The notes under the pieces: generated by a model
Database searches by the model: none
Seen by the model: the letters and a program-made list of their open reading frames with translations, nothing else
Told to the model about the DNA's origin: nothing
Part shown: positions 672 to 25,034 of the stretch, piece by piece
Position numbering within the stretch: the first letter of the stretch is position 1
How the letters are laid out: each line of letters begins with the position of its first letter
Translations under genes and position numbers: made by a program
Assembly: GCA_021782315.1 (NCBI GenBank)
Contig: JAJXVG010000012.1
Location: forward strand, 1-35,112
DNA length: 35,112 bases
Source: Pseudomonadota bacterium
Lineage (GTDB): Bacteria; Pseudomonadota; Gammaproteobacteria; Burkholderiales; Rhodocyclaceae
Direction: 5' to 3'

Positions 672-1868
672 TCACCCGCCGTTTCCGTGCGAACCGCCGC
701 GTGCCAGGCAATTCCGGTAACGTCCTTCGACCTTTTTGGCGAACCATTCGGTGGTCAGCTTGCGGCTGATCTTGGGACTCTTCAGGTCAATTTGCGGAAG
801 GGCTTGCCGGGGCAGCGACCGGCCATCCTTTTCGGCCAGTTCGAAGACCTTGATATAGAGCGGGCTGCGGCCGAAGGCCATGGTTTTTTCCAGCAACAGG
901 TCGCGACGAATCTGCGGGCGGCTCATATCGAGCTGCTTGGCGATCGCGATGCTGGCTTCCTCGATGTCGCTCGACTGGCTTGACGGTTTGCCGTCCTCGT
1001 AGCGCAGCAGGTCGCCATCCGGCGCCAGCTGTTTGCCGGTTATTTTGCCGAGAGCCAACTGGAAGGCGGCATTGCGGCTGCTGTAGCGTCCGGCGTTGAA
1101 ATCCGCGAAGCGATAGACGATACGGTCGTAAGGCACCTCGTAGTCGAGCAGGATGGCGCTGCCGAAATAGACGCCGCCGCGTCGGGTGAATACCTCGTCG
1201 CGTACCGTTTTCGGCATCGGATAGGGGTAGCTGTGTTCCTTGACGTTCTGGGCGGCGAATTCGACACTGACCTGCATCGGGCCGCCGGTGCGGATCGGAT
1301 TGCGGTCGGCGAAGAGCCGGCGGCCGAAAGGGAGCTCGCCGCTCATGTCCTCGAACAGCGTGTTGAGCTGCTTTTCGGTTTTCAGCGCATCGATGCGTTC
1401 ATTGTAGCTTCGTCCATCGGGCGAATTCTTGCCGAGGGCGGCATTGACGATCAGCGACGGCACGCCGTAGCGACCGGCCCGGCTTTCCAGTTCGCGGCGA
1501 ACGATGGCGGGCAGGCCGGGTACCGTGGGGTCGGCCTGGAAGCTCGACTCCTGCTCGATGATGGCGATGCTGGCGCAATAGGTCTGTGTGGCGTGCGGAA
1601 TTTCCAGTGTCTTGAAAGCGCTATGCAGGTCGTCGGCCCAGCCTTGCCTATCCTTGGCGTAGCCGGGAATCAAGCGGACGATACGTTTCCTGATCTCGGC
1701 TTCGGATAGTGAGGTCGGCCAGGCGGTGGCCGTCTTGCCGTCGGCTCGCCGGGACATGTCGGAAGGCAGTGCGTCGCCCTCCTCTTCCCCGTCGTCCACG
1801 AGCGAACAGCCGGCCAGGGCGATGAGCAGGACGGCGGCAAGGAGCGCAAGACGGCTAGTGAGGGACAT
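672..1868 (-). CDS. DUF1615 family lipoprotein
   Basis: This is a 398-residue predicted lipoprotein. Starting at ATG 1868 gives MSLTSRLALLAAVLLIALAGC, a classic lipoprotein signal peptide with lipobox LAGC (cysteine about residue 21). The longer in-frame start at 1904 would add 12 residues inside the methyltransferase gene and spoil the signal. The mature part carries the conserved YCASIAIIEQESSFQADP and VPGLPAIVRRE stretches that I recognise from the DUF1615 family; EQESS recalls lysozyme-like/transglycosylase folds, but no activity is assigned here. The family is often found beside aryl polyene genes, and a periplasmic or outer-membrane role in placing the product is an inference. It overlaps the upstream methyltransferase stop by 14 bp, indicating one operon. 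Confidence 0.85.
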   Translation of the reverse strand: MSLTSRLALLAAVLLIALAGCSLVDDGEEEGDALPSDMSRRADGKTATAWPTSLSEAEIRKRIVRLIPGYAKDRQGWADDLHSAFKTLEIPHATQTYCASIAIIEQESSFQADPTVPGLPAIVRRELESRAGRYGVPSLIVNAALGKNSPDGRSYNERIDALKTEKQLNTLFEDMSGELPFGRRLFADRNPIRTGGPMQVSVEFAAQNVKEHSYPYPMPKTVRDEVFTRRGGVYFGSAILLDYEVPYDRIVYRFADFNAGRYSSRNAAFQLALGKITGKQLAPDGDLLRYEDGKPSSQSSDIEEASIAIAKQLDMSRPQIRRDLLLEKTMAFGRSPLYIKVFELAEKDGRSLPRQALPQIDLKSPKISRKLTTEWFAKKVEGRYRNCLARGGSHGNGG

Positions 1869-2595
1869 TCGATGATTCCGGGAGGCGGCAGACGAGCATG
1901 ACATTGGCGAAGGGCTTGCCCTGGTTCATCGAATCGGTTTCGACGACGAAGCCAAGGTCTTCCAGGATGGTGACCCAGTCGGCCAGCGGCCGGCAATACA
2001 GCTGCGGCAGGCGGTGGCCGCGGCTGTAGGTGACGGCATGGTCGACCCAGTTGCAGACGCGGTGGCGCAGGCCGGCCGAGGCATCGCCGACCCGGGTCAG
2101 GAACAGGCCGCCGGCTGGAAGGGCGGCGCGGATTCGCTTCAAGACATCCTGTTGGCAGGCGTGATCGAAATAATGCAGGGCATCGAGAATGGTGATGACA
2201 TCGACGCTGCCAAAATCGACCCGGGTCATGTCGCCCTGCTCTATGTGCACGAGCGGATGTTCGCGACCGAAGGCGCGGGCGGCCCGATCGACATCCTTCT
2301 GCATCAGTTCGATGCCGCGCAATTGCAGTGGCTCGGGGGCGGCCGGCCAATGCCCCGGCCAGTTGCCTTGCTCATAGAGCTTGCGGGCGGCAAGCAGCCA
2401 GGCGAACAGGCTGCCCTGGCCGCAACCGAGATCGAGATAGCGGCCACTGGCCGGGAGCAGGCCGCGCTTGAGAATTTCGCGGAAGATGCTGTCGGAGGAC
2501 AGCTTGCCGCGCGAGTAGTGATAGGCGAAACGGTTGCCGCCGGCAAAGGGGCGGCTGGCTTCGTCGATCAGGCTGCGCAGGAAGTGCCGGGTCAT
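1855..2595 (-). CDS. Class I SAM-dependent methyltransferase
   Basis: This is a 246-residue cytoplasmic methyltransferase. Motif I YLDLGCGQG is at about residues 53-61, followed by an acidic residue in the RGIELMQKD segment and VDVITILDALHYFD (motif IV-like) near residues 130-145, the normal Rossmann-type layout. ATG 2595 overlaps the stop of the upstream deacetylase gene (ATGA), so translational coupling fixes this start; longer readings run through the deacetylase gene. In aryl polyene clusters a methyltransferase modifies the aryl head group, and that is the likely role here. The substrate cannot be read from the sequence. Confidence in fold is high; confidence in substrate is low. Confidence 0.9.
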   Translation of the reverse strand: MTRHFLRSLIDEASRPFAGGNRFAYHYSRGKLSSDSIFREILKRGLLPASGRYLDLGCGQGSLFAWLLAARKLYEQGNWPGHWPAAPEPLQLRGIELMQKDVDRAARAFGREHPLVHIEQGDMTRVDFGSVDVITILDALHYFDHACQQDVLKRIRAALPAGGLFLTRVGDASAGLRHRVCNWVDHAVTYSRGHRLPQLYCRPLADWVTILEDLGFVVETDSMNQGKPFANVMLVCRLPESSNVPH

Positions 2596-3392
2596 GGGAC
2601 GGGGTCGGGGAGCGCAACGGCATTGAGTCGATCTTCGCGCAGCCTGGCGAGCAGGCGTGGCAGGACGGCGAGGATGACCGGTTGGCCTGCCGCCGTGCGG
2701 GCGGCATGGCCGTCGTGCAGGAGCAGGATGTTGCCAGGACCCAGGTCCTGCGTCAGGCGCTGGAAAACGGTATCGGGGTCGCCGCAGCGCGTATCGTAGG
2801 CGCGGCGCGTCCAGCTGGCCAGCTTCAACCCGAGGCGGTGCAGCACGGCGTCCAGGAAGGGGTTGCGCAGGCCCGCCGTGGCGCGGAAATAGCGCGGCGA
2901 TCGACCGGTTATTTCGCTGAGGGTGGCCTGGGCGGCGGCGATGTCGGCCTGCATGCGGACTGGCCCGAAGGTGGCGAAGGCCTTGGCATGCGAATCGCCG
3001 TGATTTTCGACGCGATGGCCACGAGCGACGATTTCGCGGCACAGTTCGGGATTTTCGCGGGCGCGCCAGCCGATGCAGAAAAATGTGGCCGTGGCGCCGG
3101 CTTCTTCAAGCAGGTCGAGGACGGAGGGGGTGACTACCGGGTCAGGACCGTCGTCGATGGTCAGGGCCACCTCGCGGCGGGCGACGGCGGCCGCCGGCAG
3201 GCGGGTCAGGTTGGGGCCGAGCAGGGTCGAGCGCGGGAGCAGGCCGGCGGTGGTGATCACCGCGTGATTGACCAACAGGATGCCGAGCGCCCAAGGCCAG
3301 AAATGCGGCAGGAGCAGGCAGCCGGCCAGCGCCGCAAGATGCGCGGCAATGGTTATCTTGATGGCGGGGGTCGGCGTCCAGGGTGTCGGCAT
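2592..3392 (-). CDS. Polysaccharide deacetylase family protein (NodB fold), membrane-anchored
   Basis: This is a 266-residue protein of the CE4/NodB-homology family. Two hydrophobic stretches (about residues 14-30 and 33-52) precede the catalytic domain, so it is probably anchored in the inner membrane. Motif 1 TIDDGPD (about 78-84) supplies the base/metal aspartates; the metal-binding histidines fit NHGDSH (H131, H135); the C-terminal LLLHDGH supplies the last catalytic histidine. All key residues are present, so it looks active. ATG 3392 is used because it lies just downstream of the hydrolase gene stop (3394-3396) and gives a sensible N-terminus. The family removes N- or O-acyl groups from sugars. 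In this cluster it may trim a sugar on the polyene glycolipid or its lipid anchor, which is an inference. Confidence 0.88.
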   Translation of the reverse strand: MPTPWTPTPAIKITIAAHLAALAGCLLLPHFWPWALGILLVNHAVITTAGLLPRSTLLGPNLTRLPAAAVARREVALTIDDGPDPVVTPSVLDLLEEAGATATFFCIGWRARENPELCREIVARGHRVENHGDSHAKAFATFGPVRMQADIAAAQATLSEITGRSPRYFRATAGLRNPFLDAVLHRLGLKLASWTRRAYDTRCGDPDTVFQRLTQDLGPGNILLLHDGHAARTAAGQPVILAVLPRLLARLREDRLNAVALPDPVP

Positions 3393-3393
3393 G

Positions 3394-4023
3394 TCAGATG
3401 GAAAAATGGGCGAGAGCGAGGAAATGTTCCCACAATAGCAGCCAGGCCGGCCAGTCGTGCCCGCCGGGCACGACCTGACGGGCGGCGGCCGGGAAACGGG
3501 CGGCGATGAAGTCCATGCCTTCGGCGAATCGATCTGCCTCGCCATAACCGAGGTATACCGGAAAGTCGGTCGGCGGCGCCTTGAGCCAGTTGTAGGCGCG
3601 ATACTCCGGATCGCTCATCTCTTCGGCCGTCGGTTGCCAGCTGTCGAGACCGCCGGCCCGCTCGATGGCATTGGTGGTCAGGCGGCTGCCCGGATAAGGC
3701 GCGAGCAGGCACAGACCGTCGGCAAGTCCCGGGAAATCGGCATTCAGGCTCAGCGCGAGCAGGCCGCCGAGCCAGAGACTGGCGTAATCAGCGCGGGCCG
3801 GGCGAAGGATCTGGTCGACGATGGCGGGAATGGCCTTGCCGCTGGAAAGCGCGTCGAGTTCGAGATCGACGGCGAGCAGACCGAGTTTCGATGCGTGGTG
3901 ATCGACGGCGGCAAAGAAGCCGTTTTCGACGTAGTGTTCGGGCTGCATGCCGGCGCCCGGCAGCAGCACCAGCAGGTTTTCGGCCGCGCACCTATGGCGC
4001 AGGGTGCGAAGCGCGGGACTCAT
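3394..4023 (-). CDS. Alpha/beta-hydrolase-like protein lacking the nucleophile serine
   Basis: This 209-residue protein has an alpha/beta hydrolase outline: LLVLLPGAG (oxyanion-side strand, residues 17-25), a nucleophile-elbow-like segment SLWLGG at 82-87, an acid-bearing strand YLGYGEADRF (D about 166) and a late histidine in GGHDW. At the elbow, where GxSxGG is expected, the serine position is W84, encoded TGG (complement of 3772-3774). A single base change from TCG would restore serine. It may therefore be a non-catalytic member, a recent loss of function, or a sequencing error. It sits mid-operon between the exporter and deacetylase genes. The start is ATG 4023; the ribosome-binding region is occupied by the parS-like site 3 bp upstream and no good Shine-Dalgarno is seen. 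Function is unknown; thioesterase or esterase is the family-based guess. Confidence 0.75.
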   Translation of the reverse strand: MSPALRTLRHRCAAENLLVLLPGAGMQPEHYVENGFFAAVDHHASKLGLLAVDLELDALSSGKAIPAIVDQILRPARADYASLWLGGLLALSLNADFPGLADGLCLLAPYPGSRLTTNAIERAGGLDSWQPTAEEMSDPEYRAYNWLKAPPTDFPVYLGYGEADRFAEGMDFIAARFPAAARQVVPGGHDWPAWLLLWEHFLALAHFSI

Positions 4024-4026
4024 GCG

Positions 4027-4040
4027 GTTTCACGTGAAAC
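4027..4040. other. parS-like ParB binding site 1
   Basis: The sequence GTTTCACGTGAAAC is a perfect palindrome identical to the core of the bacterial parS consensus (tGTTTCACGTGAAACa). It is intergenic, in the 48-bp gap between the MMPL exporter stop and the hydrolase-like start codon. The flanks (GCG on the left, GCGGC on the right) are shared with the second site at 21279-21292. ParB binds such sites, spreads, and recruits ParA and SMC near the origin. Identification is by consensus match. Confidence 0.85.
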
Positions 4041-4071
4041 GCGGCCAGTCGAAGAGGATCGTTCTTTTCGC

Positions 4072-6393
4072 TTAGGCACGAGGCCGTCCGACGAAGCTGG
4101 CCGAGAGCAGCAGCGCGAGGACGGCGCCGGGACCGACGGTGATGCCGATGGCGTGCAGCACCGGCACGTTCGACAGGGCCAGCGTGCCGAAACCGATGGC
4201 CGTGGTCAGGTTGGCGACGGCCATCGAAACCAGCGTCTGGCTCTCCAGATTCTCCCCGTTGTTGGTCCGGTCGAAAAATAGGGCGTAATTGGAGCCGACG
4301 GCAACGATCAGCAACATGCCGATCAGATGCAGCAGATGCAGTCGCTCACCGGCCAGATGCAGGCCGGCGATGACCAGGAGGACGGATATCAGCAGCGGCA
4401 ACAGCACGGTGGCCAGCCGCCGGAGCGAGCGCAGGGTGACGGCAAGCAGGGCGACGATGGCGACGAAACCGGCAAACGAGAGTAGTGTCGCTTCGCGCAG
4501 GTAATCGTTGTACAGCGTGTCGAATTCGCTTTTCAGGTCGACGAACAGCGCGCCGCTGCCGGTCAGCGCAGTGCGTACCGATTCGATCTCGATGCCCCTG
4601 TCGCCTTCGGGTGGGCGCAAGGGCAACAGTACGCTCCAGCCGCTCGGGCGCCGCAGCAGCAGAGAATCGACGGCCAGCGCCAGGCTTGTCCCGGTCAGCT
4701 CCTGGCGTGTTATGTTGCCCTCTTCCCGCGTCTTGCGGACGTCTTCGAGGAATCCGCCGAGCTTGCCGGCGGCCAGCGGCGAGTCGGCCTGCGCGGTGCG
4801 CAGGCGGGCCTGCAATTCGTCGTCGGTCGGCAGGCAGGCGCGACGGGCCGCCTGCATGGCCTGGCTGGGCAGGAAGCGGGCCGGACTGTCGTAGCCGCCG
4901 ATGACGCCCCGGGTAATCAGGCCGTCAAGCTGCAGTCCGGCCCGTTCGGCAGCCTGGAGGGCCGCTTCGCGGTCGGCGGCGGTGATGACGGCCATGTAGC
5001 GGGCGTCCGGGGCGGCGATATCGGCCCGCAGCGCCGCATCGGTGGCCGAATCCTCGGCGCTGATCGTGCTCAGGGCCGAGAGGTCGGGATGCCACAGGCG
5101 GTCGTGATCGAAGGCGAGCAGGCCGGCGGCGAGCAGTGCGAGGACGAGGATCGGCCGGCGCAGGTCTTGCAGTATCGCGATGCTGTGCTTGAGAAGGGGA
5201 CCGAGATGGCTCAGGTCGCGCATGGCGAACTGACTGCCGGCCAGCGGTGGCAGGATGAAGCGGGTGACGGTGGCGGCGGCCAGTACGCCGCTCAGCGCAT
5301 AGAGGCCAAGTTGGGAGAGGCCGGGGAAACCTGAAAACAGCAATGCCGCGAAACCGAAAGTCGAGGTCAGGACACCGAGCCTGATGGTGGGCCAGAACCG
5401 CTCGCGCCACTGGCTGACTCCTAGCCGACTGGACTGTACGAAATAGTAGATCGAGTAATCGACCGCTTCGCCGATCAGGGCCGAACCGAAACCGACGGTG
5501 ATGCCGAAGACCGTGCCGTAGACGAGACTGACGGCGACGATGCCGGCCAGCGCGCCGCTGACGACCGGTAGCAGACCGAGAACCATCAGGCGGGGCGAAC
5601 GATAGACGAAGAACAGCACGGCGACGATGGCGAGACTGCTGATACCGGATAGCCGGCTGACTTCGCTCTTGATGGTCGCCCGCGATTTGACGGCGAACAG
5701 GCCGGGACCGGACAACTGCATGCTTAGCCGGCTAGCCGGCGCAACTTCCGAGAACTGGCTGTGGATCAGTGCGATGGCCTGTTCCTGGCCGTCGGTATCG
5801 GAACCCAGGGCTGCGGTCTGCAGCAGGAGCATGGCCCGTTCGCCGTCGCGGGAAGCCCAGACGCCGTCGCGGATATTGGGTTGGGCGCCGGCATTCAGGC
5901 CATTGAGTATTTCGATCATTTCGCCGGTCGGATCGCGCGGCAGCAACTTTTTGATCAACATGCCGGTCGGCGAGGCCAGGCTCTCTATGCTATCGGCAAT
6001 GCTTGTCCGCAGGCCATCGACGGTGAAGCGGGCGGGGGTGATTGACGGGCTGAGCAGGTAGCGGTGGCGGAAAAGGAAGTCGCGGTCGGCGTCCAGACTA
6101 CCGGTTTCGCCGTTCTGCACGGCAACGAATACCGACGATTTTTCGAGTCGACTGCGCAGTTCGCGGGAAGCGCCGGCCCGTTGGCCGGCGTCGCCGCCCG
6201 CGATGGCCACCATCAGCAGTCGTGAGACGACCCCTTCTTTCAGCTGGTCGACCAGCACCTGTTGCTCGACGCTTGGCTTGGCCGGCAGGAAAAAGGACAT
6301 GTCGGCCGAAAAGCGGCTGTTCCAGACGATGGCCGCACCGGCCAGCATGGCCAGCAGCCAGATCAGGAAAGCGCGTACGGCCGATCGTTTCAT
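4072..6393 (-). CDS. MMPL/RND-type exporter of the polyene cluster
   Basis: This 773-residue inner-membrane protein is of the MMPL (RND superfamily) type. A first transmembrane helix at about residues 8-25 is followed by a large periplasmic domain, then a block of helices around residues 240-400 (including FGSALIGEAVDYSIYYFVQ, with charged residues in the membrane as in proton-driven RND pumps). A second periplasmic domain and a second helix block near the C-terminus (GMLLIVAVGSNYALFFDRT) complete the duplicated layout. ATG 6393 overlaps the upstream LolA-like stop (ATGA). In aryl polyene clusters this exporter works with the LolA-like carrier to move the lipid-linked product from the inner to the outer membrane. 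The position directly after that gene supports this role. Confidence 0.92.
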   Translation of the reverse strand: MKRSAVRAFLIWLLAMLAGAAIVWNSRFSADMSFFLPAKPSVEQQVLVDQLKEGVVSRLLMVAIAGGDAGQRAGASRELRSRLEKSSVFVAVQNGETGSLDADRDFLFRHRYLLSPSITPARFTVDGLRTSIADSIESLASPTGMLIKKLLPRDPTGEMIEILNGLNAGAQPNIRDGVWASRDGERAMLLLQTAALGSDTDGQEQAIALIHSQFSEVAPASRLSMQLSGPGLFAVKSRATIKSEVSRLSGISSLAIVAVLFFVYRSPRLMVLGLLPVVSGALAGIVAVSLVYGTVFGITVGFGSALIGEAVDYSIYYFVQSSRLGVSQWRERFWPTIRLGVLTSTFGFAALLFSGFPGLSQLGLYALSGVLAAATVTRFILPPLAGSQFAMRDLSHLGPLLKHSIAILQDLRRPILVLALLAAGLLAFDHDRLWHPDLSALSTISAEDSATDAALRADIAAPDARYMAVITAADREAALQAAERAGLQLDGLITRGVIGGYDSPARFLPSQAMQAARRACLPTDDELQARLRTAQADSPLAAGKLGGFLEDVRKTREEGNITRQELTGTSLALAVDSLLLRRPSGWSVLLPLRPPEGDRGIEIESVRTALTGSGALFVDLKSEFDTLYNDYLREATLLSFAGFVAIVALLAVTLRSLRRLATVLLPLLISVLLVIAGLHLAGERLHLLHLIGMLLIVAVGSNYALFFDRTNNGENLESQTLVSMAVANLTTAIGFGTLALSNVPVLHAIGITVGPGAVLALLLSASFVGRPRA

Positions 6394-6959
6394 TTGACAT
6401 CGACCGGGTCGATGCTGATAACCGAACGATCGCCGTCGGCCTGCAGGTATTCGATATTGCGCACCTGATTTCTCTGGCCGCTGACGGTGATGCGCAGGAT
6501 GATGGCGGCTATTTTTTGGTCGCTGGGCAACAGTGTAAGCACCCACTTGTCTGAGTTGCCAGATAAGTGGAGGGCATAATTTTTTTCCAGCGCGAGCCGA
6601 TTGCCCGACAGCGTACCGCGGATGCTGTCGACGAAGGCCAGCGCTTCCGGCTGGTTGGCCAGATTGATGCTCAGTTTCTGTTTTTCGCGTTCGATCGACA
6701 GGGTGTCCCCGTCGAGCCGCAGGGTTTCGATTTTCGGCGCCAGCGTGCGCTTTTCCAGCCGATTGGGTGCGGTATAGGTCATTTCCCCGGAGGAGACGAC
6801 CGGCTTGTCGAGTAGCGAGATGTATTTCTTCTCGACGAATTTCGCCTTGCCGCCCTTGTGAGTGGCCAGGTCGTTCATCAACTGGCCGATATCGAAGGCG
6901 GCGCTGGCCGGCAGGGCCAAGGTGAGCAGGATGAGGCTGCCGAAAAGTCTTTTGATCAT
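6390..6959 (-). CDS. LolA-like outer-membrane lipid/lipoprotein carrier
   Basis: This is a 189-residue periplasmic protein with a clear Sec signal peptide (MIKRLFGSLILLTLALPASA, cleavage about residue 20). The mature part follows the LolA fold signature: a FVEKKYISLLDKPVVSSGEM strand pair, YTAPNRLEKRT and a repeating beta-strand pattern that forms a hydrophobic cup. It is a cluster-specific paralogue rather than the housekeeping LolA, judged by its context between the acyltransferase and the MMPL exporter. It is expected to carry the hydrophobic polyene lipid across the periplasm. Both ends overlap neighbours by ATGA, so translation is coupled. Confidence 0.85.
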   Translation of the reverse strand: MIKRLFGSLILLTLALPASAAFDIGQLMNDLATHKGGKAKFVEKKYISLLDKPVVSSGEMTYTAPNRLEKRTLAPKIETLRLDGDTLSIEREKQKLSINLANQPEALAFVDSIRGTLSGNRLALEKNYALHLSGNSDKWVLTLLPSDQKIAAIILRITVSGQRNQVRNIEYLQADGDRSVISIDPVDVK

Positions 6960-7855
6960 TTTTTCTGCCAGAAATCGAAGAAATTGAACCAGTTGTAGGG
7001 GGCCTGGTGGCAGAAGTGCGTCAGGCGGTCTGCGTAGCGCTGCATGGCATCTCGAATGGCGGCATCGCGCAGCTCGCGCGGCGTTTGCGAAAAATCGGCC
7101 AGCGCTTCGAAGTGTAGCTGGTAGCGGTTGTCACCGAGATAGAGTCCGGTCATGAAGAAAACGGGGCGGCGCAGCATGGCCGCCATGCGGAAAGGGCCGA
7201 CCGGAAAAGGCGCCGGTTTGCCGAGGAAGTCGCAATCGAGTGTGGTGTCGTCGCTCAGGCTGCGGTCGCCCAGCATGCCGACGACGTAACCCGCATCGAG
7301 CTTGTCGCGGGCCTGCAGCATCGAATCCATGCGGCCGAGCGGAATGATGTCCTGGCTTGCCGCCGGGTTGATCGCCTCCAGCGTGGCGTTGATCTTGCGG
7401 GCGTTTTCTTCGTACATCAGCATGGCAACCTTCAGCCCTTCCCTGCCCCGGCCAACGGCGCGCAGCACTTCGAAACTGCCGAGATGGGCACCGATGAGCA
7501 GGGCGCCGGGATACTGGCGAGCGGCTTCATTGACGGCTTCGGCGCCGATGATCTCGATGTCGAAGAGATCGAAGCGGTCGTTGAGCAGGTAGATGCGGTC
7601 GTGGATGGTGCTGGCGAAGCTGAATACATGGCGAAAGCCGTCCGACCATTCGGCCCAGCGGCCCAGCGCCAGGTGCAGGTAGTCGCGACTGAAGCGCCGG
7701 GCGCGTGGCGAGAAGAGGACAAAGTAGGCGGCAATTCCATGGAGCACGATACGGCCGACGGTTCGACCGAAGGTCAGCGAGATCCAGACCATCAATTTCA
7801 GGATGGCGAGATTGCTGCGCTCTTGCTGGCGCAGCCATTCGGCTTCGCTTTTCAT
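6956..7855 (-). CDS. LpxL/LpxM-like lysophospholipid acyltransferase
   Basis: This is a 299-residue membrane-associated acyltransferase of the HtrB/LpxL family. An N-terminal hydrophobic segment is at about residues 20-48; the catalytic HX4E motif is H124-E129 in GAHLGSFE; LGDRS with the downstream DFLGKPAPFPVGPF stretch is typical of the second conserved block. All catalytic residues are present. The likely job is to transfer the ACP-bound polyene chain onto a lipid acceptor, as proposed for the acyltransferase of aryl polyene clusters. It starts at ATG 7855, overlapping the dehydratase stop (ATGA), and ends overlapping the LolA-like start. Confidence 0.9.
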   Translation of the reverse strand: MKSEAEWLRQQERSNLAILKLMVWISLTFGRTVGRIVLHGIAAYFVLFSPRARRFSRDYLHLALGRWAEWSDGFRHVFSFASTIHDRIYLLNDRFDLFDIEIIGAEAVNEAARQYPGALLIGAHLGSFEVLRAVGRGREGLKVAMLMYEENARKINATLEAINPAASQDIIPLGRMDSMLQARDKLDAGYVVGMLGDRSLSDDTTLDCDFLGKPAPFPVGPFRMAAMLRRPVFFMTGLYLGDNRYQLHFEALADFSQTPRELRDAAIRDAMQRYADRLTHFCHQAPYNWFNFFDFWQKK

Positions 7856-8157
7856 GGTGCCGGCGCTTTCAGGCTACCCGATGCGACATCGCGATCGGCG
7901 GTACGAACGTTGAATGAAATCGACCCGCTTGCCTTGGCCTGAAAAACAAAAGTAAGCGCTTCACCCGGCCGGACGGGGCTGAAAAACTTGCTGTTGCCGA
8001 CCTGCCACTTCAACTGGCTGCGTCCGATCATTTTCTCGGCGAAAAGAATCGCCCGGTCGAGCAGGACGACGCCCGGTACGATCGGATTGCCGGGAAAATG
8101 CCCGCTGAAGGCCGGATGGTCGGCCGGGAACGTCCAGCGGAATTCAGCTTCTGCCAT
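7852..8157 (-). CDS. ApeI-type 3-hydroxyacyl-ACP dehydratase (hot-dog fold)
   Basis: This is a 101-residue single hot-dog protein with the FabZ/FabA-type motif HPAFSGHFPGNPIVPGV; the catalytic histidine is H20, and the GNPIVPG loop is intact. It would dehydrate 3-hydroxyacyl-ACP to the trans-enoyl chain during polyene extension. It is shorter than housekeeping FabZ (about 145 residues), as is usual for the cluster-associated small dehydratase. ATG 8157 gives MAEAEFRWTF and overlaps the ligase stop by 14 bp; earlier in-frame starts lie inside the ligase gene. Confidence 0.88.
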   Translation of the reverse strand: MAEAEFRWTFPADHPAFSGHFPGNPIVPGVVLLDRAILFAEKMIGRSQLKWQVGNSKFFSPVRPGEALTFVFQAKASGSISFNVRTADRDVASGSLKAPAP

Positions 8158-9499
8158 GGGCGATCTTTTCGGCATACAGTGCCTGCAATTCGGCGCGAGG
8201 CAGTTTTCCGGTGCTGTTGCGCGGCAGTCCGTCGACCAGAACCAGCGGCCGGGGCAGGAAGATGGCATCGATGCGCTGGCGCAGGGCGATGCCGAGCTGC
8301 CGGGCGGTCAGGCCGGGGGCGACGACGAAGGCACTCAGCCGGGTCACCCCGTCCGCAACCTGGTCGTCGGGCAGGAAGAAAGTGCCGTCGACCACACCGG
8401 GAATGGCGCAGAGCTGGTGATTCAGGTAGGCCAGCGAGGTGCGTTTGCCGGCGATATTGATCAGGTCGGCGTGGCGGCCGTGCAGTAGGAAACGGCCATC
8501 CGGCAGCAATTCGATCCGGTCGCCGAGCGGTACGCGGCCCTCAACATGGCCGTCGCAGGCGACGGTCTCGTCGGCGGCCTGTTCGAGTCGAACGTCGGAC
8601 AGCAGGGTCCAGGCGGCACCATCGGTGGTGCGGCGGCTGGCCAGTTGACCGGACTCTGTCGAGCCGTAGATCTCCAGCAAGGGCGCACCGGTACGCGCTT
8701 CGGCTTCGTTGGCCAGCGTTGCCGACAGCGGCGCGGTGGCCGAGAGCAGCAGATCGAGCGGCGGCAGCTCGATGCCGGCGGCGAGCAGTGTCGACAGGTG
8801 GAAAGGCGTGCTGACCAGCAGGCGCGGCTGCGGCACAGCGGCCAGCGCGCCGGCGATATCCTGCGGGAAGAACGGCTTGCCGGCCCAGAAAGAACAGGCG
8901 CCGTGCAGGGCAAGCAGGAAGGTCGATTCGAAACCGTAGCTGTGTTGGACCGGCACGGTCCCGACGATGGTGTGCGGACGGTCAAGCAGCCCCAGGGCGA
9001 CTGCTTCGGCCCGGCCGTTGGCGGCCAGTTTGCCCCAGGTCTTGCGCTGAGCCTGCGGCAAGCCGGTCGAGCCCGAGGTGAACAGGATGGCGGCGAGATG
9101 ATCGAACGGAATGGCCGGGACGCAAATATCCGCTGTCTGTTTCCTTCGTCCGGCGAGCAGGTCACGTGCGGGGAAATCAAAGCGCGGCAGATCCTGCGTG
9201 TCGGTACTGCCGTCGCAAAGGCAGACGAGATCCGGGTATCCGGCTTGCAGGCGGCGAAAGGTCGTTGTCGATTGTGAGGAAGGTTGCAGGCTGGTCATGC
9301 CGCGGAGCAGACCGGCGGCAAAACCGACCGCGAAATGGTAGCGGTCGTGGCACAGGTTGAGCAGATATCCGGTGGCCGGTAGCTGCTCGGCCAGCGCAGT
9401 TGCGTCGGCCAGATAGGCGGCGACGCTGACCGGGCCGTCCGGGCGCCAGGCGACGATGGCGGCGGGGTTGTCGTGGGTGAGCAGGGGCGCGGTGCTCAT
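8144..9499 (-). CDS. AMP-forming acyl/aryl-CoA (or ACP) ligase
   Basis: This is a 451-residue adenylate-forming enzyme. The phosphate-binding motif FTSGSTGLP is at about 140-148, the adenine-binding IYGSTESGQ near 275-285, the hinge aspartate region DGRFLLHGRHADLI follows, and the C-terminal catalytic lysine is K432 in RNSTGKLPR. It is slightly shorter than typical acyl-CoA synthetases (500 or more residues), matching the cluster-specific type. It would activate the aryl starter (for example a hydroxybenzoate or cinnamate) with ATP and load it on an ACP. Two ACPs lie just upstream. ATG 9499 overlaps the COG4648 stop by ATGA, which decides the start. Confidence 0.9.
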   Translation of the reverse strand: MSTAPLLTHDNPAAIVAWRPDGPVSVAAYLADATALAEQLPATGYLLNLCHDRYHFAVGFAAGLLRGMTSLQPSSQSTTTFRRLQAGYPDLVCLCDGSTDTQDLPRFDFPARDLLAGRRKQTADICVPAIPFDHLAAILFTSGSTGLPQAQRKTWGKLAANGRAEAVALGLLDRPHTIVGTVPVQHSYGFESTFLLALHGACSFWAGKPFFPQDIAGALAAVPQPRLLVSTPFHLSTLLAAGIELPPLDLLLSATAPLSATLANEAEARTGAPLLEIYGSTESGQLASRRTTDGAAWTLLSDVRLEQAADETVACDGHVEGRVPLGDRIELLPDGRFLLHGRHADLINIAGKRTSLAYLNHQLCAIPGVVDGTFFLPDDQVADGVTRLSAFVVAPGLTARQLGIALRQRIDAIFLPRPLVLVDGLPRNSTGKLPRAELQALYAEKIAHGRS

Positions 9500-10161
9500 C
9501 ACGGCGTGGCCGGCGGTTTCTGCTTGCCGTGCATGTGATAGGCGCGGACGATCTGGGCGAAACTGGGTCTTTCTTCCGGTGGCAGGACACGGATGCGCCA
9601 GAAATGCTCGCCGACGAACATGGCGGCGAGCAGGGGCATCGACAGCAAGTTGGCAAAGATCGACCATAGCGCGGCCGGCGCAAAGGTCCAGAGAATGGCC
9701 GAAATCAGCGCATTGATCAGGAAAAACAGCGTCCAGGCGACGGTTACCCGCCGGGTGTGGCGTTGTTTGCGCTCGGAAATATTGCCGTGATGCATGGCGC
9801 GGGCCAACTGGGTGATCAGGGCCTCGCCCTTGCCGAGCAGGCTGCGTCCGAACAGGGCGGCGAGCGCCAGGTTGGTGCCGAGGTGCTGAATGAAGAAGAG
9901 GAGCGCGACATTCCGGTGCAGGGTCGGCCACAACCTGGCCAGGGCGCCGAGCATGAGGAGGATGCCGCAGGCGGTGAGCGCCGGATGGCTGGCGCGCCAG
10001 AGCAACAGGACAAGGGTGGCGATAATCGGCGAGACGCCGAGCAGGACGGATAGGTCGGTATGACTGTTGCCGGCACTGCCGACGTGGGCAAGCGCAGCCC
10101 AGACGACGACGAAGACAAGCACAGCCAGGCCGCGCAGTAGCTGGGCCGGGCTGATGGTCAT
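9499..10161 (-). CDS. COG4648-family integral membrane protein
   Basis: This is a 220-residue protein of the COG4648 family, which I recognise from aryl polyene clusters. Several hydrophobic helices are evident: residues 8-26, 38-55, 60-78, about 83-105, and two more around 140-185. The segment LFFIQHLGTNLALAALFGRSLLGKGEALITQ is conserved in the family, and a cytoplasmic-looking tail (PPEERPSFAQIVRAYHMHG) ends the protein. No biochemical function is established from sequence. Its place between ACP and ligase suggests a role at the membrane in handling the growing chain. ATG 10161 overlaps the ACP stop (ATGA). Confidence 0.85.
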   Translation of the reverse strand: MTISPAQLLRGLAVLVFVVVWAALAHVGSAGNSHTDLSVLLGVSPIIATLVLLLWRASHPALTACGILLMLGALARLWPTLHRNVALLFFIQHLGTNLALAALFGRSLLGKGEALITQLARAMHHGNISERKQRHTRRVTVAWTLFFLINALISAILWTFAPAALWSIFANLLSMPLLAAMFVGEHFWRIRVLPPEERPSFAQIVRAYHMHGKQKPPATP

Positions 10162-10442
10162 TTGGTTCGCCGGCTGACGATATGTTCGGTCAATGCCCGC
10201 AGCGACGAAAAGATGCGGATGTTGTCTTCGCTGTCCGATTTGAGCTGGAAACCGTATTGCTTGGAAATGACCAGGGCGATTTCGAGGACGTCGATCGAGT
10301 CCAGGCCGAGGCCGTCGCCGAACAAGGGGGCGTCGGCTTCGATTTCGCCCGGGGCCAGGTCGAGATTGAGGGCCGTGACGATCAGCTGGGCAACTTCGGG
10401 TAAGAGGGCGGCGACGGCTTCCTGGGAAATGGCTTGAGACAT
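10158..10442 (-). CDS. Acyl carrier protein 2 of the polyene cluster
   Basis: This is a 94-residue acyl carrier protein. The phosphopantetheine site is S49 in GLGLDSIDVLE, a normal four-helix ACP motif, and the protein is acidic. It lies 17 bp after the ketoacyl synthase gene and its stop overlaps the COG4648 start. Two distinct ACPs (this one and that at 11714-11953) are typical of aryl polyene systems, one for the starter and one for chain extension; which is which cannot be told from sequence alone. Confidence 0.93.
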   Translation of the reverse strand: MSQAISQEAVAALLPEVAQLIVTALNLDLAPGEIEADAPLFGDGLGLDSIDVLEIALVISKQYGFQLKSDSEDNIRIFSSLRALTEHIVSRRTK

Positions 10443-10459
10443 GGCGATACTTCCGTGGA

Positions 10460-11710
10460 TTATTGGCTAAGGGTGCGGAACGCGAGGACCGCGTTGCTGC
10501 CGCCAAAGGCGAAGGAATTCGAGAGGGCGGCACGCAAGGGTTGAGCGCTCCGGAGCGCGGTGACATGGTCGACCCCGCTGCATTCCGGGTCGAGCGCGTC
10601 GAGATGGGCGGTCGGCGGAATGGCCCGGTCGCGCAGGGCAAGCACGGTGATGATGGCTTCGATGGCGGCCGAAGCACCGAGCATGTGACCGTGCATCGAT
10701 TTGGTGGAACTCACCGCAAGCCGGTTGGCATTGTTGCCGAAAACGGCCTTGAGGGCGGATATTTCGACCGGGTCGCCCTCGGGAGTCGCGGTGCCGTGGG
10801 CGTTGACGTAATCGATATCGCTTGCCGCCAGGCCGGCATCGGCCAGGGTCAGTTCGATGGCGCGAATCTGGCCTGCGGCCTCCGGGCGTACGAGGTGGCT
10901 GTGATCGCAGGTCGTGCCGTAGCCGATGATTTCGCCATGGATGCGGGCACCGCGAGCGACGGCATGTGCCCAGTCTTCAAGCACCAGGGCCGCCCCGCCC
11001 TCGCCCAGCACCAAGCCGTTCCGGTTCCTCGAAAAGGGGCGACAGGCGGATGGCGAGCTCTCGGCGTCGCCGGGGGCCATGACACGCAGCGCCTCCCAGG
11101 CGCGGGCAACGCCGTAGGTCTGCGGCACGTCCGAGCCGCCGGTCAGCATGACGGTCGCTTCACCGCTCCGTACGCGGCGGAAAGCCTCGCCGATGGCGAT
11201 TGCCGACGAGGCGCAGGCGACAGTGTGGGTCATGCTGACGCCACCCAGGCCAAACTGGATGGACATGTGGGCGCTTGCCCCATTGTTCATGCCGAGGACG
11301 ACGGTCAGCGGCGACAGGCGTTCGCGGTATTTTTGCCATAACTCGCGGTAACCTTTTTCGTAGGTCAGCGTCCCGCCGAGGGCCGTACCCCAGGCCACGC
11401 CCCAGTCATTGCGCATCCCCTGTCCGACCTGGCGAGGCAGGCCGGCGTCGTTCCAGGCATCGAATGCGGCAGCCATGCCGAGTTGGGCAAAGCGGTCCAT
11501 CATGCCGGCCAGCGGCTTGCCGAGTGCGATATCGGGGTCGAAGGCGGTACAACTGACGAAGGGCATGGACAGCGGTCGCGGCGCATCGTCGGTTTGCAGG
11601 TGACCGACGGCCGACTGGCCGGCACACAGACGTCCGAAGAAATCGGCAAGGTCGCCGCCATAGGGGCTGACCAGCCCCAGGCCAGTTATTGCAACCCGCC
11701 GCCGTTTCAT
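10460..11710 (-). CDS. Beta-ketoacyl-ACP synthase (KAS II-like)
   Basis: This is a complete 416-residue FabF-like condensing enzyme. The nucleophile is C166 in TVACASSAIAIGE; the two active-site histidines are H305 (NAHGTATPEGD) and H342 in KSMHGHMLGA, with K337 present. Length matches FabF. It should catalyse condensation of malonyl-ACP with the growing aryl-polyene chain. It begins 3 bp after the first ACP gene, in the same order as in other aryl polyene clusters. Whether it pairs with another KS subunit as a heterodimer cannot be seen here. Confidence 0.95.
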   Translation of the reverse strand: MKRRRVAITGLGLVSPYGGDLADFFGRLCAGQSAVGHLQTDDAPRPLSMPFVSCTAFDPDIALGKPLAGMMDRFAQLGMAAAFDAWNDAGLPRQVGQGMRNDWGVAWGTALGGTLTYEKGYRELWQKYRERLSPLTVVLGMNNGASAHMSIQFGLGGVSMTHTVACASSAIAIGEAFRRVRSGEATVMLTGGSDVPQTYGVARAWEALRVMAPGDAESSPSACRPFSRNRNGLVLGEGGAALVLEDWAHAVARGARIHGEIIGYGTTCDHSHLVRPEAAGQIRAIELTLADAGLAASDIDYVNAHGTATPEGDPVEISALKAVFGNNANRLAVSSTKSMHGHMLGASAAIEAIITVLALRDRAIPPTAHLDALDPECSGVDHVTALRSAQPLRAALSNSFAFGGSNAVLAFRTLSQ

Positions 11711-17711: not shown

Positions 17712-17775
17712 GAACTGCCTGTCGCCCGATGCGGTGCGGCATCCCGCCTGGCCGCGAAGCTGTCAAAATGGCGGC

Positions 17776-20930: not shown

Positions 20931-21239
20931 TCAGATCTTCAAACGTTCGACGACCTTGCCGCCGATCAGGTGTTTCTGGATGATTTCCTCGACATCTTCC
21001 CGGTCGACATAGGTGTACCAGACGGCTTCCGGGTAGACGACCATGACCGGTCCCTGGTCGCAGCGATCGAGGCAGCCGGCCTTGTTGATGCGGACCTTGC
21101 CCGGCCCCTTCATCTTGAGCTGGGCGATACGGTCCTTGGCATAGGTCTGCATTTCGCTGGCGCCCAATGCGTTGCAGCAGGTCTCGCCGGGTTCGCGTTG
21201 ATTGCAGCAGAAAAAGACGTGATGCTTGAAGTGGCTCAT
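20931..21239 (-). CDS. Thioredoxin-like 2Fe-2S ferredoxin
   Basis: This is a 102-residue thioredoxin-fold [2Fe-2S] ferredoxin. The N-terminal FFCCNQREPGETCC segment gives cysteines near positions 11-12 and 21-22, and AGCLDRCDQGP gives C56 and C60, the ligand pattern of the Shethna/NuoE-like (2Fe-2S) group. ATG 21239 has a strong AGGAGAG upstream. The role is electron transfer; the partner is not known. A parS-like site sits 39 bp upstream. Confidence 0.92.
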   Translation of the reverse strand: MSHFKHHVFFCCNQREPGETCCNALGASEMQTYAKDRIAQLKMKGPGKVRINKAGCLDRCDQGPVMVVYPEAVWYTYVDREDVEEIIQKHLIGGKVVERLKI

Positions 21240-21278
21240 GCGAACTCTCCTGTGTGGTCCGCCATTATAGGCGAGGCG

Positions 21279-21292
21279 GTTTCACGTGGAAC
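21279..21292. other. parS-like ParB binding site 2 (one mismatch)
   Basis: GTTTCACGTGGAAC matches 13 of 14 bases of the parS core (one A to G in the right arm). It lies in the 67-bp intergenic gap between the ferredoxin start and the P-type ATPase stop. The surrounding bases GCG-GTTTCACGTG-(A/G)AAC-GCGGC are shared with site 1 over about 22 bp, which argues against a chance match. Confidence 0.72.
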
Positions 21293-21306: not shown

Positions 21307-24027
21307 TCAAATGCCGGCGCGCTTGCCGTCGGCGCGGGAAAGTCGTTTCTCGATCCCGATCACGAGGGAGCAGAGCACGGCAACCGCCGCGATTTCCGTC
21401 CATTCCCCGATGCCGATCGGTGCCGTCTGGAACAGGCGATTCATGGCCGGCAGGTAGGTAAGCAGCAGTTGCAGGACAAGGGTGAGGCCGATGCCGCCCC
21501 AGATCCACGGGTTGGAAAACAGGCCCTGGCGCCAGAAGCCATGGTTCAGGGAGCGGCAATTGAAAAGGTAGGCGGCTTCGACCATGACGAAGACGTTGAC
21601 GGCGATGGTCCGCGCTTCGGCCAGACCGTGGCCGTTCTCCAGGCCGCGCAGGAAGAGGCCGAAGGAGCCGGCGAGGAGCAGCAGGGAAACGAGGACGATA
21701 CGGCGAATCAGGCTGCCGTCGAGAACCGGCATGTCGAGGCGGCGCGGCGGACGGCGCATGATGTCGCACTCGATCGGCTCGAAGGCGAGCGGCAGCCCGA
21801 GCAGTACGGCGGTGGTCATGTTGATCCACAGGATCTGCAAGGGAGTGATCGGCAGGGTGGTGCCGAAGAGGACGGCGGTGACGATGACCAGCCCTTCGCC
21901 GAAGTTGGTCGGCAGGGTCCAGGTGATGAACTTGACCAGGTTCTCCCAGACCCCCCGCCCCTCCTCCACAGCCGCTTCGATGCTGGCGAAATTGTCGTCG
22001 GTGAGCACCATGGCCGCCGCTTCCTTGGCGACTTCCGTGCCGGCCAGCCCCATGGCGATGCCGATATCCGCCTGCTTGAGGGCCGGCGCGTCGTTGACGC
22101 CGTCGCCGGTCATCGCGACGACCTCGCCGTGCGTCTGCAGGGCGCGGACGAGGCGCAGTTTCTGTTCCGGCTCGACCCGGGCGAAAAGGTCGGTTGCCTG
22201 GGCCGTCTCGGCCAGGGCCCGGTCGTCGAGGTCGCCCAGTTCGCGGCCGGTCAGGATAGTTCCGGCGTTCAGGCCGAGCAGGCGCGCCACTGCGCTGGCC
22301 GTGACGGCGTGGTCGCCGGTGATCATCTTGACCCGGATGCCGGCCGTATGGCAACTGCGGATGGCTGCGATGGCCGCCTGGCGTGGCGGATCGATCATGC
22401 CGACCAGGCCGATCAGGGTCAGCTTGTCGATGTCCTGCCCGGACAGCCGAAAATCCGGTGCGCCATCGATATCCTTGCGGGCGAGCAGCAGGACCCGCAT
22501 GCCCTGCCCGGCGTAGCCGAGGGCCGCCGCTTCGACGGCGACGGGGTCTACCGGGCGGCTCCGTCCGTCGGCGGTCAGTTGCGCCACGCAACGGGGCAGC
22601 AGGCGTTCGAGCGCACCCTTGACGAAAACGACCATCCTTTCGCCACGACGATGGGCGGTGGCCATGAACTGGCGGTTGGCGTCGAAGGGGAGAAGGTCCT
22701 GGCGCGGCAGGGATGCGCCCAGTGCATGCTCGTTCAGGCCGGCCTTGCGGGCGGCGACGATCAGCGCCGCTTCGGTCGGGTCGCCGGTGATGGTCCAGCC
22801 GTCATGTTCGTGGCGCAGCGAGGCATCGTTACAGAGGGCACCGGCGACCAGGCATTCCCGGCCTGCCTCGTCCCCGTCGACCGGCCTGCCGTCGCAACTG
22901 ATGGTGCCGGCCGGGTCATAGCCTTCGCCGCTCACTTGGTAATGCCGTTCGGCGCACCACAGGGCGCGGACCGTCATCGCATTTTCGGTCAGGGTGCCGG
23001 TCTTGTCCGAACAGATGACGGTCGTGCTGCCCAGGGTTTCGACGGCCGGTAGATGGCGGATGATGGCCCGGCGCCTGGCCATCCGGGCGACGCCGATGGC
23101 CAGGGTGACGGTGACGGCGGCCGGCAGCCCTTCCGGAATGGCACCGATGGCCAGGGCGACGGCCGCCATGAACATGTCGAAAGCCGTTTCGCCGCGCAGC
23201 AGACCGACGCCGAAGGTGAGCAGCGCCAGACCGCCGATGGCCCAGAGCAGCCAGTTGGAAAAGGTCGCCATCTTGCGGGTCAACGGTGTCGCCAGGTTGG
23301 GGGCGGCAGCGATCATTTCTGCGATGCGTCCGGTCTCGGTGGCGTCACCGGTGGCGACGACCAGGCCGCAACCCTGCCCGGCGACCACTGTCGTACCGGC
23401 ATAGGCCATGTTGAGACGGTCGGCGAGCAGGGTATCGGTCGGCAGGGGGGCGGTCCGTCTGGCGCTTGCCAGCGATTCGCCGGTCAGCATCGAATCGTCG
23501 GTGTGCAGTCCGTACTGTCTGATCAGGCGCAGATCGGCGGGAACGCGGTCGCCTGCGGCGAGGAGTACGACATCGCCGGGGACCAGCAGACTGGCGTCAA
23601 TTTGCCGGCGATGGCCGGCGCGGCGAACGGTGACCGTTGTCGCAACGCTTCGCGCCAGCGCGGTCAGCGCCCCTTCGGCCTTGGCCTCCTGCCAGTAGCC
23701 GATGACCGCGTTGACCAGGACGACGCCGAAAATGACGCAGGCGTCGACCGTTTCGCCGAGGGCGACAGTGATCAGTGCGGAGGCGATCAGGACCAGGACA
23801 AGCGGTTCCGCCAACTGCGCGACAAAGCGTCGCCAGACCGGGTTGCCTGGCATTTCGCCCAGGCGGTTGGGGCCGTGCCGGGCCAGTCTGGCGGCGGCTT
23901 CGTCGGCGCTCAGGCCGCTGTCGCCGTCGACGGCGAGGTACCGGGCGACAGCTTCCGCCGATTCGGCGTGCCAGGTCAGTTCCGGCGTGCGGTCAACAGG
24001 AGGAAGGGCAGGGTCAGGAAGGGCCAT
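21307..24027 (-). CDS. Cation-transporting P-type ATPase (P2A, Ca2+-ATPase-like)
   Basis: This is a 906-residue P-type ATPase. Cation-ATPase N-terminus at about 15-75, actuator motif TGES (182-185), the membrane motif PEGLPA (298-303, typical of P2 Ca2+/Na+ pumps), the phosphorylation site D341 in CSDKTGTLT, and the hinge TGDGVNDAPALKQADIGIAMG are all intact, with about ten membrane helices. ATG 24027 is taken from the start of the conserved N-terminal domain and overlaps the VanZ gene end by 52 bp; longer readings enter that gene. Ca2+ or Mn2+ is a likely substrate, but the ion cannot be fixed. Confidence 0.93.
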   Translation of the reverse strand: MALPDPALPPVDRTPELTWHAESAEAVARYLAVDGDSGLSADEAAARLARHGPNRLGEMPGNPVWRRFVAQLAEPLVLVLIASALITVALGETVDACVIFGVVLVNAVIGYWQEAKAEGALTALARSVATTVTVRRAGHRRQIDASLLVPGDVVLLAAGDRVPADLRLIRQYGLHTDDSMLTGESLASARRTAPLPTDTLLADRLNMAYAGTTVVAGQGCGLVVATGDATETGRIAEMIAAAPNLATPLTRKMATFSNWLLWAIGGLALLTFGVGLLRGETAFDMFMAAVALAIGAIPEGLPAAVTVTLAIGVARMARRRAIIRHLPAVETLGSTTVICSDKTGTLTENAMTVRALWCAERHYQVSGEGYDPAGTISCDGRPVDGDEAGRECLVAGALCNDASLRHEHDGWTITGDPTEAALIVAARKAGLNEHALGASLPRQDLLPFDANRQFMATAHRRGERMVVFVKGALERLLPRCVAQLTADGRSRPVDPVAVEAAALGYAGQGMRVLLLARKDIDGAPDFRLSGQDIDKLTLIGLVGMIDPPRQAAIAAIRSCHTAGIRVKMITGDHAVTASAVARLLGLNAGTILTGRELGDLDDRALAETAQATDLFARVEPEQKLRLVRALQTHGEVVAMTGDGVNDAPALKQADIGIAMGLAGTEVAKEAAAMVLTDDNFASIEAAVEEGRGVWENLVKFITWTLPTNFGEGLVIVTAVLFGTTLPITPLQILWINMTTAVLLGLPLAFEPIECDIMRRPPRRLDMPVLDGSLIRRIVLVSLLLLAGSFGLFLRGLENGHGLAEARTIAVNVFVMVEAAYLFNCRSLNHGFWRQGLFSNPWIWGGIGLTLVLQLLLTYLPAMNRLFQTAPIGIGEWTEIAAVAVLCSLVIGIEKRLSRADGKRAGI

Positions 24028-25034
24028 AGAATGCCGATCAGTCGGGTCAGGCCGTTGAAGTTGAGAAAGTGCCCCTGTCGCCAGGTGGCCAGCGCGGCCG
24101 CCGAATAGGGGTTCGGCGGCGCCATGTTGACCAGCACGGTGCCGGCCATCAGTGCCAGGGCGGCGATGATCAGGCGGGGTGTGGCGGGCAGTGCCATGGC
24201 GACGCCAAGGCCGGCGATGCCGACGATCAGGCCGAGGCGGGCACCGGGCGTCAGCCAGGCGAAGGCGTCGCCCGGGCTGACCAGGGCGGCGGCGGCAACG
24301 GTGGCAACGGCCAGGCAGAGGAGCAGAAAGATGGGCACGACAAGGTAGGCGGTGCTCAGCCTGGCGCACAGCATGCGGACGATCAGGCCGACGGCGAGAA
24401 GGTTGAAGGCGGTAATGCCGGCTTCGATGACGATGAAGCTATCGGCGGCGAAAGGCATGGCGCCGGTCAAGCCGAAAATCTGCCGCAGATCGCCGGCACC
24501 GAAGAGCAGTATTTCCGGCGAAAGCGGGACGAGCAGCCATAGGCCGAGCAGGGTTAGGCCCAGCTCGGCATGCGGAATGGGCGCGACCAGGCGTTGTTCG
24601 AGGGCGGCGATCCGGATGAAGATGCGCGGCCCGACTGCTTGCGCCCAGAGGGCGCCGAGCAGCCCGCCGAATGAATTGCAGGCCAGGTCGAGATTGGAGG
24701 GTACGCGCGAGGGGAGCCAGGTCTGCAAGGTTTCCATGCAGAAACTGACGCTGCCGGCGAGCAGGGTCGCCAGCAGCAGTCCGCTGAAGCGGCCGGGCAG
24801 GCTGCTCAAGGCCAGGGCCAGGAAGAAGCCGAGCGGCAGATAAACTGCAACGTTGGCGACCAGGTCGAAGGTGGTCCAGTAGCGCGGCCAGCCGCCTTCG
24901 AGAAAAGCGATCGGCGAGACACCGGTATCGCGCCAGCCGGAGAAGGGATGCAGGCTGCCGTAAACGACCAGGCCGCACCAGGCGAGCGCTAGATAACGGG
25001 AGAGCAGGATGGGGCCGCGACCGTGATGGAGCAT
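23976..25034 (-). CDS. VanZ-family integral membrane protein
   Basis: This is a 352-residue protein with about nine hydrophobic helices. The N-terminal half has the VanZ-like pattern: YGSLHPFSGW, TTFDLVANVAVYLPLGFFLAL, FCMETLQTWLPSRVPSNLDLACNSFGGLLGA. The ME...R.P...D..N block is the family hallmark. The C-terminal half is an extra membrane domain without clear similarity. VanZ homologues are linked to teicoplanin resistance in enterococci, but functions in proteobacteria are unknown. ATG 25034 opens the only good N-terminus. Its 3' end overlaps the ATPase start, so the two may be co-expressed. Confidence 0.87.
   Translation of the reverse strand: MLHHGRGPILLSRYLALAWCGLVVYGSLHPFSGWRDTGVSPIAFLEGGWPRYWTTFDLVANVAVYLPLGFFLALALSSLPGRFSGLLLATLLAGSVSFCMETLQTWLPSRVPSNLDLACNSFGGLLGALWAQAVGPRIFIRIAALEQRLVAPIPHAELGLTLLGLWLLVPLSPEILLFGAGDLRQIFGLTGAMPFAADSFIVIEAGITAFNLLAVGLIVRMLCARLSTAYLVVPIFLLLCLAVATVAAAALVSPGDAFAWLTPGARLGLIVGIAGLGVAMALPATPRLIIAALALMAGTVLVNMAPPNPYSAAALATWRQGHFLNFNGLTRLIGILWPFLTLPFLLLTARRN

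Follow-up and report, generated by a model that had tools for sequence, protein, structure and literature searches.

The 14-base palindrome GTTTCACGTGAAAC found in a pigment operon of the window, the whole analyzed stretch of 35,112 nucleotides from a Rhodocyclaceae genome, is very probably a chromosomal parS site belonging to an array of 4–15 sites around oriC of Azonexus/Dechloromonas. In ParABS systems, ParB loaded on parS forms a CTP-dependent clamp that slides outward, and ParA separates the new origins. ParB would accordingly bind the parS of the pigment operon, load there as such a clamp, and slide outward, and movement of this ParB–DNA complex by ParA would lead to separation of the new origins. 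The comparisons described below support the parS interpretation proposed in the initial annotation.

As that annotation claimed, the exact GTTTCACGTGAAAC is present at precisely 4027–4040, and only three bases (4024–4026) separate it from the ATG of the ORF 3394–4023(−). The short gap in which it was said to lie is the 48-base segment 4024–4071, bounded on its other side by the ORF 4072–6546(−). Its rarity in 35 kb was also reproduced; the base composition predicts 4.6e-5 occurrences of the exact GTTTCACGTGAAAC per window and 0.0044 in the whole genome. When ≤2 mismatches were allowed, the window gave 2 matches against 0.04 expected, and 0 of 100 dinucleotide shuffles reached 2. The site is flanked by G...G and fits the GTTNCACGTGAAAC core of chromosomal parS. 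A plasmid origin of the locus was rejected, since 3394–4071 gave no plasmid match at blastn sensitivity.

The host assembly is a 3.39-Mb draft of 291 contigs that is 89% complete. Many random copies in it would have spoken against parS, and the search gave 2 exact copies (4027–4040 and C18:6545) together with one 1-mismatch copy (21279–21292), the latter being an additional site of the window beyond the one annotated initially. A search for the perfect palindrome undercounts, as many sites of the genus carry one or two G/C changes, so that the genome was searched again with GTTYCACGTGRAAC. This gave four sites, C18:6545, C56:4027, C56:21279, and C214:2674, all of which fall at positions carrying a site in relatives (Table 1). 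The genes on C18 encode a 3-oxoacyl-ACP reductase (FabG), a halogenase-like flavoprotein, and an FkbO/Hyg5-like chorismatase, and in G047, the one relative read for this slot, a site lies between homologues of the halogenase/chorismatase pair. For the C214 type, the site was inside slt in 3 of the 4 loci read (G046, G029, and G042), and no slt match was obtained in the 2 kb fetched from G018 (L223). Separately, in a distant relative, G098 (L013, C1:396580-397760), the exact parS core occurs four times at intervals of exactly 389 bp, suggestive of a tandem-repeat array.

Table 1. Positions of the parS sites of the host genome and of the features around them (window coordinates unless a contig is named).
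Feature	Position	Strand	Remark
209-aa ORF	3394..4023	-	directly downstream of the site at 4027
parS site, exact GTTTCACGTGAAAC	4027..4040	.	in the exporter/209-aa ORF gap of the pigment operon, 3 bp from the start codon of the latter ORF
MMPL-family exporter ORF	4072..6546	-	upstream of the site; mechanical start
Pigment-operon ORFs: LolA-like, acyltransferase, FabA/ApeI-like dehydratase, AMP ligase, ketosynthase	6390..11710	-	
2Fe-2S ferredoxin-like ORF	20931..21239	-	below the curated cut-offs of two ferredoxin models
TATAAT, predicted -10 box of the ferredoxin gene	21264..21269	-	9 nt from the second parS; sequence reading only
Second parS, GTTTCACGTGGAAC	21279..21292	.	one base off the palindrome; upstream of the ferredoxin-like gene
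Cation-transporting P-type ATPase ORF	21307..24369	-	mechanical start too early; ATPase profile from residue 137
parS, exact copy	C18:6545		5' end of a chorismatase ORF (mechanically called)
parS, GTTCCACGTGGAAC	C214:2674 (L170)		inside the lytic transglycosylase (slt) coding region

A genome lacking parB had been named as a reason to abandon the parS reading; instead, a parA–parB pair was found beside two genes that we take to be gidB and atpB, with ParA and ParB themselves backed by profile matches. The parB product scored 193.6 bits for TIGR00180. Ten of its residues were compared, with positions counted without gaps from the GRSR motif and numbered after the excerpted text of PMC7383237. 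S172, R173, N178, G201, and R204 of the parS-reading set are kept, positions 179 and 184 are of the variable kind, and positions 162 and 171 deviate, carrying H162 and R171 where that excerpt describes Q and K as conserved. A second ParB-family gene (318-aa frame) was observed on C193 (L005), a contig other than that of the parAB operon.

The metabolic operon mentioned in the initial annotation was recovered as well. The minus-strand ORFs of 672–11710 read as a pigment cluster, presumably of the aryl-polyene type, and include, in addition to those listed in Table 1, a DUF1615 protein, a methyltransferase, and a polysaccharide deacetylase. The 209-aa ORF gave no Pfam or NCBIfam match, and a thioesterase-like protein is presumed by analogy with aryl polyene clusters. 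Near the pigment region, at 17734–19335, the window also encodes a B12-binding radical SAM protein with a DUF4080 domain. The loci with the nearest exporter genes are labeled mostly Dechloromonas, Azonexus, or Rhodocyclaceae, and from these labels we infer Azonexus/Dechloromonas as the genus of the host.

Clustering near oriC, which was expected of genuine parS sites, was observed in the ten single-contig congeners. These have 4 to 15 sites each, and all 88 sites with listed positions lie ≤145 kb from dnaA with a median distance of 39 kb, the count being 93 when 5 sites without listed positions, all of G042, are included. Multi-contig congeners were also searched; some of their sites are on dnaA-less contigs, and these genomes were left out of the distances. 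The exporter gene and dnaA are on one contig in 32 congeners, and the distance between them is 17–32 kb in 31; it is because of this closeness of the operon to dnaA in the genus that a parS site lies inside a pigment operon. The exception is G024 (C1:1750624), whose exporter homologue is 1.5 Mb from dnaA and showed neither a site nor a recognizable 209-aa ORF in the 2 kb read. The exporter cluster of this genome would have been either relocated or separately acquired. For the window site, we infer a distance of ~26 kb from dnaA by synteny with single-contig G047, whose exporter is 79% identical, because the host assembly consists of 291 contigs and the present one is unlinked to dnaA or parAB.

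The junction between the exporter and the 209-aa ORF was compared over 60 genomes of the genus, own included, of which 50 gave an exporter match and 45 a readable junction. This junction is filled with GTTYCACGTGRAAC in 36 of the 45, own included (25/30 plus 11/15). Five further exporter loci have no recognizable 209-aa ORF, one of them (G041) with an exporter only 24% identical. Among the 9 empty junctions, 7 were measurable, and in all of these the cluster stays near dnaA, indicating that this single site is dispensable. In a set of 71 named loci, which overlaps the genus set, 35 bear a site and each of them exactly one. No site was detected in the 3.6–22 kb of DNA fetched for each of 18 loci of other genera (Hydrogenophaga 11, Accumulibacter 3, Thiobacillus 2, Thauera 1, and Rhodoferax 1; 209-aa ORF unrecognizable in three), and the junction site is absent from D. 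agitata too. Where the exporter overlaps the next gene, as found in congeners whose exporter genes are more distant, the site supplies the final codons of the exporter, read as FVPRET or FVPRGT. Most of these codons are rare; in six loci whose frame is sound and whose start is GTTCCA, the product of codon frequencies is 3e-5 to 1.5e-3 at GC3 of 0.76–0.88. The computation also covered two other loci, of which one has a doubtful frame. In the window and the relatives nearest to it, the stop codon of the exporter precedes the site, which is non-coding yet present and would have been retained as such. The 20 nt upstream of the site are 54% identical over 17 junctions that were chosen as site-bearing. 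As read from this comparison and from the 36 filled junctions, the site is kept by descent beyond its surroundings. The 36 filled junctions comprise 13 GTTTCACGTGGAAC, 10 GTTCCACGTGAAAC, and 7 and 6 palindromes.

A second slot is provided by the site at 21279–21292. In the window, its first arm occupies the −35 position with a 17-bp spacing to TATAAT. A ferredoxin homologue with an upstream site was identified in 8 congener loci, all of them selected for bearing a site. In 6 of these 8, as in the window, the site and TATAAT are 9 nt apart; of the other two, one has 10 nt to a TATAAA, and the other is arranged differently. The neighboring gene gave ATPase domain matches in 3 of the 8 loci, four match only the initial part of the mechanical ATPase ORF that precedes the ATPase domain, and one gave no match. 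The second slot is associated with the ferredoxin gene regardless of whether the P-type ATPase adjoins.

A similar regularity was found before gyrB. The dnaN–gyrB junctions (L171–L219) were fetched from 49 congeners, and gyrB was recognized in 47. The leader contains GTTTCACGTGGAAC in 41 of the 47, always with GGAAC facing the ATG across a spacer of 5–8 nt, which is 7 nt in 30 of the 41. Four more gyrB sites have one or two changes each, and TGGAA is spared by all five substitutions. The leader of G024 offers a doubtful four-change candidate followed by no in-frame ATG, and that of G022 is siteless with AAGGAAG before the start. The host's own gyrB gave no match over the cut-off in the draft assembly. 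The same layout was detected in two other families of the order (L247, L253–L259). No report of a parS site upstream of gyrB was found in the open-access literature. At these slots and at the junction described above, parS sites keep a fixed spacing to gene-expression signals, which is suggestive of parS doubling as leader or promoter DNA.

Several explanations other than a plain member of the origin array were considered. A chance 14-mer, or a site of another CACGTG-binding protein, has only the small size of the motif in its favor and is exceedingly improbable in view of the ~5e-5 occurrences expected per window, the dnaA clustering, and the slot conservation. A somewhat unlikely alternative is a parS with a second role, in which the arm nearest the start codon also acts as leader or ribosome-binding segment for the next gene, as perhaps at gyrB. 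Two selections would then fix the position of the site and, at gyrB, its orientation as well. Such dual use agrees with the spacer between site and ATG of the 209-aa ORF, which is exactly 6 nt in 34 of the 36 filled junctions although the length of the upstream DNA varies; the two exceptions are the window (3 nt) and G010 (14 nt). It also agrees with the uniform GGAAC orientation and narrow spacer at gyrB, with the sparing of TGGAA in the changed gyrB sites and the AAGGAAG that stands in siteless G022, and with the recurrence of the gyrB layout in other families. Furthermore, among 17 non-coding junctions, of which 6 are palindromic, all 11 asymmetric ones turn GGAAC to the ATG. When all 36 pigment junctions are taken, however, the asymmetric forms are divided into 13 with GGAAC and 10 with GAAAC facing the ATG. 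A search of 399 genomes of the order for sites 4–9 nt before an ATG gave 35 GGAAC versus 24 GAAAC, which became 27 versus 22 after removal of the genus, so that a general bias of the arm toward start codons was found neither outside the genus nor over the 36 junctions. When 30 GGAAC and 21 GAAAC cases were examined, recognizable gene starts numbered 13 versus 3 and other ATGs 17 versus 18, a gene-start contrast with Fisher p=0.035 over rows that are related by descent and not independent. Ten of the 13 GGAAC gene starts are gyrB, from three families with seven from one genus, and 2 of the 3 GAAAC gene starts are coding-locked pigment junctions of Azonexus/Dechloromonas; starts that we take to be of MnmG are also among the gene starts. 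The arms are predicted to pair weakly with the 16S tail, whose sequence was assumed (−3.3 to −4.0 kcal/mol versus −6.6 and −5.8 in two siteless leaders), and a stronger Shine-Dalgarno sequence was rejected as the cause of the orientation since the duplex energies do not favor the GGAAC arm. In addition, the fifth gyrB candidate (G024) is doubtful, the sparing of TGGAA cannot be proven from as few as five substitutions, and the window itself has the 3-nt spacer and a symmetric arm. The spacing is also inheritable without selection, because the spacer is short.

An operator function, with transcription of the next gene lowered by ParB bound at this site or at the ferredoxin promoter, is unlikely. 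The ferredoxin slot speaks for it, with the first arm at the −35 position, the 9 nt to TATAAT in the window and 6 of 8 loci, and a site that keeps to the ferredoxin gene while ATPase domain matches occur in only 3 of 8 loci, as does the repression of PA0011 and PA0013 by the intergenic parS3 and parS4 of P. aeruginosa, described in an excerpt of PMC7022226. The same excerpt states that, in B. subtilis, loss of Spo0J left the expression of genes near its sites unchanged, and the pigment site is intra-operonic, away from any recognized promoter. The reading as a chromosomal parS in the origin array is the one we adopt. A wider version, in which the centromere array is fused to expression signals, with parS forming the leader or ribosome-binding segment of gyrB and the pigment gene and the −35 region of the ferredoxin gene, is quite unlikely on the sequences compared. 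If it were true, the position and orientation of centromere sites would be under joint selection with the transcription and translation of genes near the origin, and the expression of gyrase and pigment could be tied, through ParB occupancy, to origin copy or segregation state.

The parS itself is of a known kind; what merits further attention is its locked spacing at several slots. Several dozen congeners make up a natural series of parS sites whose positions are tied to start codons and a promoter, so that the influence of a chromosomal ParB site on its neighbors becomes directly testable at gyrB, the ferredoxin gene, and the pigment gene. Moreover, a lone parS in a metabolic operon can flag origin proximity, even in a fragmented metagenome assembly.

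The window site resembles chromosomal parS (TGTTNCACGTGAAACA) in its 14-base core, the presence of several copies, their proximity to the origin, and a parAB pair in the genome. It differs from the textbook 16-mer in its flanks, which are G...G instead of T...A, and the genus departs from it by mixing GTTTCACGTGAAAC, GTTTCACGTGGAAC, and GTTCCACGTGGAAC. The 4–15 copies of single-contig congeners exceed the 2 of B. cenocepacia chrI and fall below the 22 of M. xanthus given in the excerpt of PMC7022226. Like parS3 and parS4 of P. aeruginosa, which that excerpt places upstream of PA0011 and PA0013, the site is intergenic and directly before a gene; unlike them, it lies between genes of an operon and away from a recognized promoter. 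The Noc-binding sites (NBS) are likewise palindromes read by a ParB-family protein and, in the excerpt of PMC7383237, differ from parS at positions 1 and 6. Unlike NBS readers, the ParB of the present host has the parS-type residues R173 and G201.
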